Source: an uncultured Clostridia bacterium
Lineage (GTDB): Bacteria > Bacillota > Clostridia > Oscillospirales > SIG627
Assembly (NCBI GenBank): GCA_946645685.1
Contig: CAMPCJ010000008.1
Location: forward strand, 1-36,640
Direction: 5' to 3'
Length of the DNA stretch: 36,640 nt
Shown: positions 3,935 to 9,830 of the stretch, one piece after another
Position numbering within the stretch: position 1 is the stretch's first letter
How the letters are laid out: each line of letters begins with the position of its first letter
Notes under the pieces: generated by a model
Database searches by the model: none
What the model saw: the letters and a program-made list of their open reading frames with translations, nothing else
What the model was told of the DNA's origin: nothing
Made by a program: the position numbers and the translations under genes

Positions 3935-4447
3935 TCAATCTTCCGACAAAAGCTTTTTCCAATCTGCTTCCACGGCGTCATAGGGCTTGCCCGTGACGTG
4001 GGCGATCTCGCTGAACACCAAGATCTCGGCGTCCCGGAGAAAATAGTCGTCCGTGGTATGCATATTCTTGCCGATCTTCGCCATTTCCTTTTTGTGGGCG
4101 AGGATGGACTTGATGAGCAGCAGCGCGTCCAGGCGATCCGGCGATCCCAGCGCCCGGCGGCTCTCCTCACTGCGCTTCCGGAAGTCCCTGTTCCAGGGGC
4201 AAGCCGTCTCTTTCGCCCGCTTCCTGAGAGAAGCGATCTCCTCCTTCGTGAGGAGCGGGCGCATTCGTTCGGTCAATTCCCCGTTGTCGCAGGGGACGAA
4301 GACCTTGGAGGAGCCGGCTTTGTAAAGAGGGGTAAGCGTATAATAGCGCGCGTCGCCCGCGCCCGTGTTCATGGTCACGACTTCGCCGACTTCGCAAACG
4401 CCCGCCTGACCGTAGCGCACCAGCGCCCCGGGTTTGTATGCCGTCAT
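3935..4447 (-). CDS. CarD family transcriptional regulator
   Basis: MTAYKPGALVRYGQAGVCEVGEVVTM...YYTLTPLYKAGSSKVFVPCDN...MRPLLTKEE: CarD/RID N-terminal domain pattern (YG.AGVCEV, Y.L.P......VFVP) plus a helical C-terminus. Confidence 0.88.
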   Translation of the reverse strand: MTAYKPGALVRYGQAGVCEVGEVVTMNTGAGDARYYTLTPLYKAGSSKVFVPCDNGELTERMRPLLTKEEIASLRKRAKETACPWNRDFRKRSEESRRALGSPDRLDALLLIKSILAHKKEMAKIGKNMHTTDDYFLRDAEILVFSEIAHVTGKPYDAVEADWKKLLSED

Positions 4448-4767: not shown

Positions 4768-6243
4768 ATGAAGCACAAAAGGATCGTAAAGCGCCTGGCG
4801 TTCTGGCTGGCGCTGACGTTTGTTTTATCCGGCTGTGCCGGCACGCCCGCTCCCGTAACGATTGCGCCCGCGCCGGAAAGCGCTCCGGCGACGGAAGAGC
4901 CCGCGCCGCCCCCCGGCGACACCTCCGGCTTCTGCGTGGGCGTCGGCAGGGCGGACATCACCCCGGAAAGCCCCGTGCCCCTGGCGGGGTACGGCAACGT
5001 GGATTACCGGATCTCCAAGCGGGTCCTGGATCCGCTGTATATTACCGCCGTGGCGGTGCGGGACGAGATCGGTGAGACCCTGATCCTTCTGAACATCGAC
5101 CTGGTCAATCTCAAGGGGGATCTTGCCGAGCGGGTGCGCGCCTTTGCCGCGGACGAGGTCGGCATAGCCCCGGATCACGTGATGACCAACTGCACCCACA
5201 CCCACTCCGCCCCCGCCCTGGAGTCCTCCGAGCCGGGGATCGACCGGTATAAGATCAAGTTTTACAAGGCGGTGAAAAGCGCCGCCGCAGACGCCGTGGC
5301 GGATCTGGACGCCTGCTCCGTCTTCATCGGCACCACGGAAACGGATCGGCTGAATTTCATCCGCCGCTACTATAAGACCGCGGGCTTCATCACCGACAAC
5401 GCGGACTACGGCACCGGGGAGATCACCGCCCACGAGACCGAGATCGATCAGGAAATGCGCCTCATCCGCTTCGTCCGGGAAAACCGGAAGGACATCGTGA
5501 TGGCGAACTGGCAGTGCCACCCCCACCGCACCGGCGGCTCGCAGAAATACGACGTGTCCGCGGACATCATCGGCGTCTGGCGCAAGGAAGCGGAAAAGGA
5601 TGAGGACGTTCTCTTCGCCTTCTTCCAGGGGGGCGCGGGAAACATCGACCCCTTCACCCGCATCCCGTCGGAGAGCCGCTATACGGACTATAAGGACATC
5701 GGCAAGGCGCTGAACGAGCATATGCAGGAGGGCTTGGCGCAGCTGCGGGAGATCGCTCCCGGCAGAGTGCGGGTCGCCACCGCCACCCTCACGGCGCCCT
5801 ACAACCACGCGGACGAGGACAAGCTGGAGATCAGCAAAAAGATCTATGAGGTCTTCCGGGGGGGCGACCGGGAAAAAGCCAGGGAAATGTGCAAGGAGGC
5901 GGGGCTTTCCTCTTACTTTGAAGCCGGCGCCATCATCGGCAGGGCATCCCGTCCCGAGACCGGGGAGATCCCCCTTGCCTGCTACGCCATCGGGGACATC
6001 GCCATCACCGCCGCGCCCTTCGAGACCTTCTGCCAATCGGAGCAGAAGACCCGGGCGGGTTCCCCCTTCGCCATGACCTTCAGCTGCGGCTACGCCAACG
6101 GGAGCCAGGGGTATCTGCCCGCGGCGGAATGTTACCAAAACCGGGGGTATGAGGTGGCGGTCACCCACTACGCCCGCCTCACCGCGGAAATGGTCGTTGA
6201 AAGCCATCTGGAGCTGCTGGCGGATCTAGCGGCAAACCCATAA
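4768..6243 (+). CDS. Neutral/alkaline non-lysosomal ceramidase-like lipoprotein (paralogue 1)
   Basis: Lipobox FVLSGC; VGVGRADITPESPVPLAGYG; NCTHTHSAP; ANWQCHPHRTGG; FFQGGAGNIDP; APFETFC; CGYANGSQGYLPAAECYQNRGYE. Confidence 0.85.
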   Translation: MKHKRIVKRLAFWLALTFVLSGCAGTPAPVTIAPAPESAPATEEPAPPPGDTSGFCVGVGRADITPESPVPLAGYGNVDYRISKRVLDPLYITAVAVRDEIGETLILLNIDLVNLKGDLAERVRAFAADEVGIAPDHVMTNCTHTHSAPALESSEPGIDRYKIKFYKAVKSAAADAVADLDACSVFIGTTETDRLNFIRRYYKTAGFITDNADYGTGEITAHETEIDQEMRLIRFVRENRKDIVMANWQCHPHRTGGSQKYDVSADIIGVWRKEAEKDEDVLFAFFQGGAGNIDPFTRIPSESRYTDYKDIGKALNEHMQEGLAQLREIAPGRVRVATATLTAPYNHADEDKLEISKKIYEVFRGGDREKAREMCKEAGLSSYFEAGAIIGRASRPETGEIPLACYAIGDIAITAAPFETFCQSEQKTRAGSPFAMTFSCGYANGSQGYLPAAECYQNRGYEVAVTHYARLTAEMVVESHLELLADLAANP

Positions 6244-6286
6244 ACGAAATCGCGGACAGACGCGTGTTTGTAAGGAGGAGATACCC

Positions 6287-7744
6287 ATGAAAAAACGTTG
6301 GATCGCCCTTTTGGCGCTGCTTGCCCTGTTGCTGACCTGCTGCGGGCAGAGCGCGACCCCGGCGGGAACGGCGCCGTCGCAGACCGCGACGGGAACGGAA
6401 GACGGACCCCGCCCGGCGGCGGAGGGCTTTTGCGCCGGGATCGGCAGAGCGGACATCACCCCGGAGGCGGGGGTGCCCCTGGCGGGATACGGCAATGAGG
6501 AAAAGCGCCTGAGCGCCACCGTGCTGGATCACTTGTACGCCACCTGCGTGGCGGTGCGGGACGAGGCGGGCACCACCCTTCTGATGTTCAACTTCGACCT
6601 GATCAACCTGCGGGAGGACGTGCAAGGTCAGATCCGGAAGCAGGTGACCCGCGCCACCGGCGTGGAAGGGGAGAACATCTTCACCAACTGCACCCACACC
6701 CACTCCGGCCCCGCTCCCGAGATCGAAAGCCCCGCCGTTTCCGCGTGGAAGGCGAAGCTGTATAAGGGCGCTGCCGCCGCCGCCACCGACGCGCTGGCGG
6801 ATCTGGGCACCTGCACCATCTCCGTGGGCACCACGGAAACGGATCGGCTGAATTTCGTCCGGCGGTATTTCAAGACCGACGGCTTTGCCACCGACCACTC
6901 GGATCGGGGCACGGGGGACATCATCTCTCACGAGACCGAGATCGACCGTGAGATGCGGGTCATCCGCTTTACCCGGGAGGGGCAGAAGGACATCGTCCTC
7001 GCCAACTGGCAGTGCCATCCCCACCGCACCGGCGGCACCAATCTGTTCAACGTGTCCGCGGACATCATCGGCGCCTGGCGCAAGGAAGCGGAAAAGAGCG
7101 GAGAGATCATGTTCGCCTATTTCCAGGGAGGCGCCGGGAACGTCAATCCCCGCTCCCGCCTGAGCGAGGAAAATCCGGATTTCGCGGATTACAAGGACTA
7201 CGGCAAGGCGCTGAACAAGCACATGACGGACGCGCTGGAGAATATGAAGGAAATGGCGCCGGGGAAGGTGCAGATCGCCACCGCCACCATCACGGCTCCT
7301 CACAACCACGCCGGGGAGGAAAAGCTGGAGGCGTGCAAGGAGATCGTCCGGCTGTCCGGCGCGGGGGATCAGATCGAAGCGGAAAAGCTGTGCGCGAAAA
7401 ACGACGTGGAGTCCGTCTTTGAGGCGAGCGCCATCGTTTCCCATTCCAACCTGGGCGAGACCGGGGAGATCCCCCTTGCCTGCTACGCCATCGGGGACAT
7501 CGCCATCACCGCCGCCCCGTTTGAGATGTTCTGTCAGACGGAACGGCAGACCCGGGCGGATTCTCCCTTTGCCTTCACCTTCAGCTGCGGCTATTCCAAC
7601 AGCTCCCTGGGCTATATGCCCGCTTCGGAATGCTTTGCCAACCGGGGCTATGAAGTGGACGTGACCCGCTATGCCGCCGGCACGGCGGAACAGATCGCCG
7701 CCCGCCAGCAGGAGCTGCTGGTGGAATTGGCGGCAAACAAATAA
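6287..7744 (+). CDS. Neutral/alkaline non-lysosomal ceramidase-like lipoprotein (paralogue 2)
   Basis: MKKRWIALLALLALLLTCCGQ N-terminus; AGIGRADITPEAGVPLAGYG; NCTHTHSGP; ANWQCHPHRTGG; YFQGGAGNVNP; APFEMFC; CGYSNSSLGYMP. Closely similar to paralogue 1. Confidence 0.85.
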   Translation: MKKRWIALLALLALLLTCCGQSATPAGTAPSQTATGTEDGPRPAAEGFCAGIGRADITPEAGVPLAGYGNEEKRLSATVLDHLYATCVAVRDEAGTTLLMFNFDLINLREDVQGQIRKQVTRATGVEGENIFTNCTHTHSGPAPEIESPAVSAWKAKLYKGAAAAATDALADLGTCTISVGTTETDRLNFVRRYFKTDGFATDHSDRGTGDIISHETEIDREMRVIRFTREGQKDIVLANWQCHPHRTGGTNLFNVSADIIGAWRKEAEKSGEIMFAYFQGGAGNVNPRSRLSEENPDFADYKDYGKALNKHMTDALENMKEMAPGKVQIATATITAPHNHAGEEKLEACKEIVRLSGAGDQIEAEKLCAKNDVESVFEASAIVSHSNLGETGEIPLACYAIGDIAITAAPFEMFCQTERQTRADSPFAFTFSCGYSNSSLGYMPASECFANRGYEVDVTRYAAGTAEQIAARQQELLVELAANK

Positions 7745-7802
7745 GAAACCGAAACGCGGATTTTCCGAAAATGAAACGGCGTTCCCCTCAGGAGGAAAAC
7801 GC

Positions 7803-9260
7803 ATGAAAAAACGGTTTTTGGCGCTGCTGGCACTTTTCGCGCTTCTTCTTTCCGGCTGTGCCCGTCCCCTGTCTCCGGCGAGCCTGGGGCAGGAGCCGGT
7901 GTTCCCCCCGGAGACGGAGGAAACGGAAACGCGCCCGGCGCCGGAGGGCTTTGCCGTGGGCTTCGGCAGGGCGGATATCACCCCGAAGTATTCCGTGCCC
8001 CTGCAGGGCTACGGCACTGTGGAGCGGCGGATGTCAGACCGGGTGCTGGATAAGCTCTACGCTACCTGCGTCGCCTTCTCCGACGGGGAAACACGGCTTT
8101 TGTGCTACACCATCGATATCGCCACCATCCCGGAGCGGCTGCAGACCGCTACCCGTGCCACCGTGGCGAAGAAGCTGGGCGTGCCGGAGGAGAGCCTTTC
8201 CTTCACCGCCACCCACACCCATTCCGCGCCCGCTGTGTTCCACGAGGCGGCGGGGGGCTATTACAGCGACTTCCTCAAGGGGCTGTTCGCCGCCGGGCAG
8301 GACGCCCTGGCGGATCTGGATGAAGCGGAAATGTCCTTCGGCACCGTTCCCACGGAGGGGCTGAATTTCGTCCGGCGCTACCTGCTGGCGGACGGCACGT
8401 ATTCCCAGAACAACAGCGGCGTTTATCCGTCCCCCGTGACGGCGCACGAAACGGAAGCCGACCCGGAAATGCGCATCCTCTACATCAAGCGCGCCCACAG
8501 CAAAGACGTGATCCTCGCCAACTGGCAGGTGCATCCCACCCTGACGGGCGCCGAGAGCCGGACGGACGTTTCCGCCGATCTGGTGGGCGCCTTCCGGGGG
8601 GAGACGGAAAAAGGGCTGGACGTACACTTCGCCTATTTTCAGGGCGCCGCCGGCAACCTCAATCCCAAGAGCCTGATCCAGGGAGAGACCCGCGCTTCCG
8701 ACCACAAGACCCACGGCAAGCTTCTCTTTGAAGCCCTGAAGGAGGGGTTGGAGCGCCTGTCCCCCGTCGCCGGCGGGAAGATCCGTCTGCTCCACCGCAC
8801 CTTTACCGGCACCATCAACCACTCGGAGGAAACGCCGGAGCGGATGGCGCAGGCGCAGGAGGTGGCGGACGCGCTGAAGTTCAGCAGCGACCAGGCGCGG
8901 GTGGTAGCGGACAAGTACGGCTTTGCCAACTATTTTTCCGCCACCTCCCTTCTGGCCCACGCCAAGATGGGGCAGACGCAGGATATGGAGCTGTACGCCT
9001 TCGCCATCGGGGATCTCGCCGTGGCGACGAACCCCTACGAAATGTTCGATACCAACGGTATGGCGCTGCGGGCGGCTTCTCCCTTTGCCGCCACCATGAA
9101 CTGGGGCTATTCCAACGGGCACTTCGGCTACATCCCCTCCGCCGCCGGCTATGAACACCGGGGCTACGAGGGCACCACCAGCCGTTTCGTTCCCGGCACC
9201 GGGGAAGAGATCGTTGCCGTTTTGACGCAGATGCTCACGGAACTGAAGGAAGCTGAATAA
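7803..9260 (+). CDS. Neutral/alkaline non-lysosomal ceramidase-like lipoprotein (paralogue 3, more divergent)
   Basis: MKKRFLALLALFALLLSGCARP lipobox; VGFGRADITPKYSVPLQGYG; TATHTHSAP; ANWQVHPTLTGA; YFQGAAGNLNP; NPYEMFD; WGYSNGHFGYIP. The ATG at 7803 behind AGGAGG is preferred to the ORF-track start at 7671. Confidence 0.85.
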   Translation: MKKRFLALLALFALLLSGCARPLSPASLGQEPVFPPETEETETRPAPEGFAVGFGRADITPKYSVPLQGYGTVERRMSDRVLDKLYATCVAFSDGETRLLCYTIDIATIPERLQTATRATVAKKLGVPEESLSFTATHTHSAPAVFHEAAGGYYSDFLKGLFAAGQDALADLDEAEMSFGTVPTEGLNFVRRYLLADGTYSQNNSGVYPSPVTAHETEADPEMRILYIKRAHSKDVILANWQVHPTLTGAESRTDVSADLVGAFRGETEKGLDVHFAYFQGAAGNLNPKSLIQGETRASDHKTHGKLLFEALKEGLERLSPVAGGKIRLLHRTFTGTINHSEETPERMAQAQEVADALKFSSDQARVVADKYGFANYFSATSLLAHAKMGQTQDMELYAFAIGDLAVATNPYEMFDTNGMALRAASPFAATMNWGYSNGHFGYIPSAAGYEHRGYEGTTSRFVPGTGEEIVAVLTQMLTELKEAE

Positions 9261-9280: not shown

Positions 9281-9303
9281 GAGCGGGGAACCGCTCCTTT
9301 TTC
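9281..9303 (+). terminator. Intrinsic terminator of ceramidase-like cluster
   Basis: GAGCGG GGAA CCGCTC then CTTTTTC, directly after the third stop codon. Confidence 0.85.
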
Positions 9304-9332
9304 TTGACAGAAGACGGCAAAAAACGTACAAT
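9304..9332 (+). promoter_or_regulatory. Sigma-A consensus promoter (TTGACA-17 bp-TACAAT)
   Basis: TTGACA 9304-9309, spacer 9310-9326, TACAAT 9327-9332, about 50 bp upstream of the ATG at 9384. Confidence 0.8.
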
Positions 9333-9383
9333 GAAGGGGCAAAGACACCAATAAAGGCGAAAGCCGAAAACAAGGAGCATGCT

Positions 9384-9830
9384 ATGTTTCGAGATCCCGG
9401 TAAAAAATTGAAAGTTCTGGCGCAGGTCATTTTCTGGTTTATCTTCATCGGCGGGCTTTTGGGCGCCGTCGGACTGCTGGTGGGCGGCTTGAGCCTTGCC
9501 GGCAGCAGATACGCTCCCGACGGGATGTGGGCGGTGATGATTTTCGGCTCGCTGCTCGTGGGGGGACTCAGCTTCCTGGTGGCGTGGCTGTCCTCTATCC
9601 GTCTGTACGCCTACGGTCAGCAGGTGGACGATACCTCCGCCATCCGCGAGACGCTGGAGAGAATGGCGCCCGCGCCCAGACCTCAATACGTGCAGCAGCC
9701 CTACGGCACGTTCGGCTATCAGCCGCCTCAGGCTCCCCCGGCTCCCCAGGCTCCTCAGGCTCCTCAGGCGCCCCAGGCTCCTCAGGCGCCCCAGAGCAAC
9801 CCCTTTGGCGGGAACGATCAGGCGTTCTGA
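9384..9830 (+). CDS. Small membrane protein with proline-rich (PQA)n C-terminal tail, unknown function
   Basis: Two predicted hydrophobic helices (VIFWFIFIGGLLGAVGLLVGG; WAVMIFGSLLVGGLSFLVAW) and tail QPPQAPPAPQAPQAPQAPQAPQAPQSNPFGGNDQAF. Good RBS and upstream promoter. Confidence 0.75.
   Translation: MFRDPGKKLKVLAQVIFWFIFIGGLLGAVGLLVGGLSLAGSRYAPDGMWAVMIFGSLLVGGLSFLVAWLSSIRLYAYGQQVDDTSAIRETLERMAPAPRPQYVQQPYGTFGYQPPQAPPAPQAPQAPQAPQAPQAPQSNPFGGNDQAF
9727..9795 (+). repeat. In-frame 9-bp tandem repeat encoding Pro-Gln-Ala
   Basis: Repeated CC(C/T)CAGGC(T/G) units within the 9384-9830 gene. Confidence 0.85.

Follow-up and report, generated by a model that had tools for sequence, protein, structure and literature searches.

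Three tandem lipoprotein genes with a ceramidase fold

The window, the whole stretch of 36,640 nucleotides that was analysed, contains three consecutive genes, here A, B and C, in an array that sits among housekeeping genes (metG, tatD and murI). The array comprises the following features:

4768..6243, + strand: gene A, ceramidase-fold lipoprotein, 491 aa (PF04734 44.1 bits, E 1.5e-11; sequence)
4825..4836, + strand: lipobox LSGC of A, Cys23 (sequence; pattern scan)
5647..5649, + strand: Asp294 codon of A at the ceramidase Ser position, GNIDP (sequence; alignments)
6287..7744, + strand: gene B, ceramidase-fold lipoprotein, 485 aa (PF04734 46.6 bits, E 2.6e-12; AF2 model pLDDT 92.4; Foldseek best matches 2zws, 4wgk)
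6332..6343, + strand: lipobox LTCC of B, Cys19 (sequence; pattern scan)
7145..7147, + strand: Asn287 codon of B at the ceramidase Ser position, GNVNP (sequence; alignments)
7803..9260, + strand: gene C, ceramidase-fold lipoprotein, 485 aa (PF04734 45.2 bits, E 7.2e-12; sequence)
7848..7859, + strand: lipobox LSGC of C, Cys19 (sequence; pattern scan)
8661..8663, + strand: Asn287 codon of C at the ceramidase Ser position, GNLNP (sequence; alignments)
9281..9304, + strand: intrinsic-terminator-like hairpin with T tail, 3' of gene C (well placed; the count is close to chance, with 7 found against 6.1 expected in the region)

Ribosome-binding-like sequences precede all three ORFs. The start of gene C was placed at 7803, after aggaggaaaacgc, where the product begins with a signal peptide; the listed ORF opens at 7671. 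Each protein consists of a lipoprotein signal peptide, a low-complexity linker and a domain of ~435 residues, and from the lipoboxes the products would be lipid-anchored at the surface. Since the hairpin follows C and the flanking genes (metG, tatD, a CarD-like gene at 3935-4447 and murI) have the opposite orientation, A, B and C look like a single transcription unit. Long antisense ORFs over the three genes were attributed to the high G+C content of the coding sequence and set aside. Within window positions 9304-9830, a good promoter-like site (TTGACA-17-TACAAT, 11/12) lies 5' of a 148 aa ORF whose product has a proline/glutamine-rich tail with APQAPQ repeats and no Pfam match.

All three proteins score above the PF04734 gathering score of 32.1 bits, the aligned part covering profile positions 1-229 only. 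An NCBIfam search with A, B and C returned no matching model, including the neutral-ceramidase equivalog NF041649, which does match two other proteins in our set, the ceramidase-like L129 and the Kitasatospora ceramidase L160, both below its 1200-bit cut-off. PF17048, the ceramidase C-terminal domain, was not detected in any of the three even with E allowed to reach 1, and was matched at 5e-53 in the Kitasatospora ceramidase. By sequence, the sole credible solved-structure relatives are the neutral ceramidases of human and Pseudomonas. B was modelled with AF2 from 42 window and relative sequences (mean pLDDT 92.4), and the model gave four PDB matches with E < 0.001 in Foldseek, all of them neutral ceramidases (2zws, 4e-27; 4wgk, 6e-26 and 1.5e-25; 2zxc, 2.5e-25), with a TM of 0.69 over the query against 2zws. 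A spurious ORF or chance motif was ruled out by the PF04734 scores, the model of B and its fold matches. The PF04734 scores, predicted Zn ligands, lipoboxes and modelled fold of B bear out a sequence-only reading of this DNA, which had proposed a clustered lipoprotein family of ceramidase-fold Zn hydrolases.

The active site and the serine position

Inspection of the sequences confirmed the motifs reported earlier (THTHS(A/G)P, NWxxHP, (A/N)P(F/Y)E and GYxN...GY(L/M/I)P): A, B and C all contain THTHS(A/G)P, NWQ(C/V)HP, (A/N)P(F/Y)E and GY(A/S)N...GY(L/M/I)P. The substitution of the serine in the ceramidase motif G(D/N)xSP also stands, the residue being Asp294 in A (GNIDP) and Asn287 in both B (GNVNP) and C (GNLNP). 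Alignment to characterised ceramidases, a check proposed along with the substitution, agrees, in that the Ser of GNLSP in P. aeruginosa ceramidase 2zws stands opposite Asn287 of B in the profile alignment.

The sequence-only reading went on to treat this Ser as the catalytic residue and its loss as the sign of a different mechanism, and neither step holds. A review of ceramidases assigns catalysis to His196, Arg257, Tyr579 and Tyr591 in human numbering (PMC6952831), and in the profile alignment these correspond to H139, R192, Y443 and Y455 of B, with human Glu540 at E413 (chain indices and human residue numbers differ here by 98). The predicted Zn ligands of B are H137, H244, E413 and Y443, which line up with those of the human and Pseudomonas enzymes. 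By alignment, then, the triplet retains every residue assigned to catalysis, and what has changed is one second-shell helper residue. Asn or Asp at this position could hold the Arg in place; some relatives have V, I, M or K there, so positioning of the Arg by that residue is not general and the position is tolerant.

Conservation was assessed across 197 homologues drawn from the organism's own family, 300 phylum genomes, named genome contigs and plasmids, a convenience sample in which rumen Clostridia are over-represented and many members are of recent common ancestry. At position 287 (B numbering) Asn occurs in 160 homologues, Ser in 15, Val in 7 and others in fewer. The active-site positions, also in B numbering, are nearly invariant: H137 and H139 in 197/197, R192 in 194/197 (Lys in the remaining 3), H244 in 196/197, E413 in 194/197, Y443 in 195/197 and Y455 in 196/197, with only 8/197 homologues deviating at any of the seven. 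Asn at the Ser position is thus the norm among the short PF04734 proteins sampled, and the triplet is no exception. The catalytic set of PMC6952831 together with these counts rules out reading the change as loss of a nucleophile: the original observation was right, the lost-catalytic-serine interpretation was not, and with it goes the idea that an absent Ser marks a new mechanism. One annotated neutral ceramidase, encoded beside a sphingomyelinase gene on a Kitasatospora indigofera plasmid (L160, 1402-3423), itself has Thr at the Ser position (GDMTP).

Distribution, arrays and phylogeny

PF04734 is present in 20/22 own-family genomes and 19/300 phylum genomes. There are 7 matches in the genome of the window and 27 in a genus relative, G001, and copy number among genus members ranges from 1 to 27. 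On contig C19 of G001 we found a same-strand tandem run of 18 genes for ceramidase-fold proteins spanning ~28 kb (G001:C19:137061-165019; loci L117 3062-18830 and L118 3929-16020), with a lipobox in 17/18 copies and the full catalytic residue set in 18/18. In another relative, G004, five or more copies follow one another up to the contig end, located as in the window next to tatD-metG-CarD; in G001 and G002 the array beside metG is absent and nothing adjoins metG, and the G003 contig ends too early for this comparison. Copy number shifts quickly and the active-site residues do not. For a small genome, as many as 18 intact copies in an array is a striking expansion that needs explaining.

These counts bear on whether the three proteins are catalytically dead paralogues. 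All three do lack the classic motif's Ser, but nearly all of the 197 homologues keep the Zn ligands and the His/Arg/Tyr set, few of them deviate anywhere in the active site, and the intact residue set in 18/18 tandem copies argues for active enzymes. We consider dead paralogues very improbable.

Several side observations concern the surroundings of the arrays. First, in the genome of the window (contig C87), a ceramidase-fold lipoprotein gene has a phage major head protein gene and other phage-like genes immediately ahead of it and tRNA-Leu and tRNA-Met behind it (L114, 331-4067), and related phage-like genes occur near one G001 array (L037). Second, a lipoprotein of 440-459 aa, NlpC/P60-like by eye, lies inside or beside two arrays (L036, 8018-9340; L117, 955-2334); it had no match in Pfam or PHROGs, nor in NCBIfam, which was searched with the L036 protein only.

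In an IQ-TREE phylogeny of 82 rows, the window proteins fall in a clade of 38 (support 100) that includes dockerin-bearing paralogues and groups, with support 99, with the GDxNH (Nag) clade. The two-domain Kitasatospora ceramidase (Thr) and the ceramidase-like L129 (Ser) lie across a branch with support 100. This PF04734 phylogeny, which had also been proposed as a check, sets the window clade apart from ceramidases. A and B group with their G004 counterparts and C separately with its own, so the split between A/B and C is older than the two species.

Gene context and candidate substrates

The window itself holds no clue to the substrate, which we infer from the gene context of relatives. Among 78 named loci of the GDxNH sister clade (1.05 Mb), a NagA-like gene was found in 28 and a NagB-like gene in 20, although neither could be assigned to its family with strength (185 bits, where the cut-off is 226, and E 1e-6). 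Sixteen of the NagA-like genes lie directly downstream, at 0-4 bp on the same strand. About 1.6 NagA genes would be expected in those loci, from 60 in ~39.7 Mb of 22 family genomes, though the ratio is rough in that models and genomes differ between the counts. ROK, AraC and DeoR regulators, sugar ABC transporters, FGGY kinases, PIG-L deacetylases and CBM9 proteins recur near GDxNH-clade genes. Independently of the Clostridia, two Nitratireductor plasmids carry overlapping genes for NagB-like, SIS isomerase, NagA-like and ceramidase-fold proteins, with a sugar ABC transporter next in line. In Haloarchaea, members of the family are found close to Gfo/Idh/MocA genes, sulfatases, heparinase II/III or GH28-related genes. 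Our literature searches found no paper linking amino-sugar operons or dockerins with PF04734.

A short Ser-bearing clade, GDxST, lies near sugar ABC transporters or NagA-like genes. With Ser in sugar loci and the Thr of Kitasatospora beside a sphingomyelinase, Ser does not track context, and Ser versus Asn was ruled out as a substrate marker. The earlier suggestion of a different substrate is therefore plausible from lineage, domain loss and gene context, and not from the Ser change on which it had been based.

Fused forms were also observed: a ceramidase-fold domain joined to a GH97 glycoside hydrolase in Kiritimatiellia (L060, 7917-11339), one joined to an M24 peptidase in Oscillospiraceae (L046, 7908-10013), and proteins of 1456-1632 aa in which ~1000 residues before the ceramidase-fold domain have no Pfam match (L121, 7075-17057; L044, 5019-9386).

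Speaking against a glycan role for the window clade itself, Nag genes were found near none of its loci, and the window array has housekeeping genes around it. GH20 genes adjoin two arrays (L037 and L040), and paralogues on contig C3 of the same genome and in relatives have dockerin-like N-termini, the matches being half-repeats at E 0.0008-0.05, below the gathering score. Other dockerins and cohesins occur elsewhere in the genome of the window. The dockerin-like N-termini, the GH20 neighbours and the ancestry shared with the Nag clade are suggestive of a tie between the window clade and glycans. At three loci (L115, 4616-13182, on contig C3; L125; L128), ceramidase-fold proteins bearing one dockerin-like half-repeat (profile 1-23) are encoded in alternation with members of another family that bear the other dockerin half (profile 31-56), possibly a split dockerin.

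Three other functions have to be weighed against a glycan substrate. If the change of Ser to Asn or Asp is tolerated, A, B and C could hydrolyse ceramides or other N-acyl lipids, such as plant, protozoal or bacterial gut sphingolipids; their PDB matches by sequence and by fold are to neutral ceramidases only, and the catalytic residues are all in place. However, A, B and C have neither the PF17048 domain of the Kitasatospora ceramidase nor the NF041649 match of L129 and L160, they are far from ceramidases in the tree, and no sphingolipid gene was found near them, whereas the Kitasatospora ceramidase gene adjoins one for sphingomyelin phosphodiesterase. We regard ceramide hydrolysis as unlikely, and the label "ceramidase" that databases attach to A, B and C as probably wrong.

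A, B and C could also act on bonds other than amides, as Zn esterases, lactonases or other hydrolases, or serve as Zn-dependent binding proteins. The carbohydrate context would suit an ester or lactone just as well, since in the sister operons a deacetylase is already provided by NagA-like genes, and the type of bond does not follow from the fold. Yet the characterised members of the fold are amidases only (PMC6952831), and the Arg and both Tyr are fully conserved over all copies, which makes this improbable in our view. We give still less credence to action on the cell wall of the organism or of other bacteria, for example on peptidoglycan amide or acyl groups. The lipoprotein location, the NlpC/P60-like lipoprotein at two arrays and the N-acetylhexosamine context of the sister clade, which suits peptidoglycan sugars too, speak for it; the wide range of copy number among genus members is unlike core cell-wall enzymes, and the dockerin-like fusions suggest external polymers.

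Alignment gives all three proteins the ceramidase fold, the Zn ligands, the His/Arg/Tyr set, a lipobox and a place in a non-ceramidase clade, and we infer that they are likely to be active Zn hydrolases with ceramidase-like chemistry. Our favoured, though still tentative, reading is that they are surface Zn amidases whose substrates are N-acylated glycans or amino sugars. The proteins would be secreted and then lipid-anchored; Zn, bound by two His, Glu and Tyr, would hold a water for attack on the acyl carbonyl, assisted by the second His, the Arg and the second Tyr; and the Asn or Asp that stands where ceramidases have Ser would probably take over positioning of the Arg, or make it unnecessary. 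Given lineage, domain loss and the gene context of relatives, ceramide would be a less likely substrate than some N-acylated glycan or amino-sugar compound encountered outside the cell in the gut. More speculatively, a large unrecognised prokaryotic branch of the ceramidase fold might consist of carbohydrate-active Zn amidases, with cytosolic forms in amino-sugar operons and surface forms (lipoproteins and dockerin-bearing proteins) multiplied in rumen Oscillospiraceae to as many as 18 genes per array, every copy adapted to its own acylated glycan. Because many prokaryotic PF04734 proteins bear the label "ceramidase", the sphingolipid metabolism of gut microbes is easily misjudged; our results suggest a carbohydrate setting for the majority of the short members, which have Asn in place of the Ser, and give a concrete, testable class of substrates.

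Comparison with known systems

A, B and C share with the neutral ceramidases (P. aeruginosa 2zws/2zxc; human ASAH2 4wgk; NF041649; PF04734 with PF17048) the catalytic-domain fold, the four Zn ligands and the active-site second His, Arg and second Tyr. Unlike them, they show only 15-18% identity by fold alignment, have Asp or Asn for Ser, have neither PF17048 nor an NF041649 match, and are lipoproteins in tandem arrays outside any sphingolipid context. The short single-domain PF04734 proteins known from Haloarchaea, Nitratireductor and Clostridia and annotated as "neutral/alkaline non-lysosomal ceramidase N-terminal domain-containing" resemble A, B and C in length (420-490 aa), absence of the C-terminal domain, a mostly Asn-bearing Ser position and tree clade. 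Most of these lack a signal peptide and are single-copy, and many lie in Nag-type sugar operons, whereas A, B and C are lipoproteins in arrays. The NagA-like and PIG-L deacetylases are gene neighbours of the sister clade and not homologues, with unrelated folds and active sites; what they would have in common with A, B and C is the kind of substrate proposed, N-acylated amino sugars. The family of A, B and C is a variant of a known fold under a label that is probably misleading.
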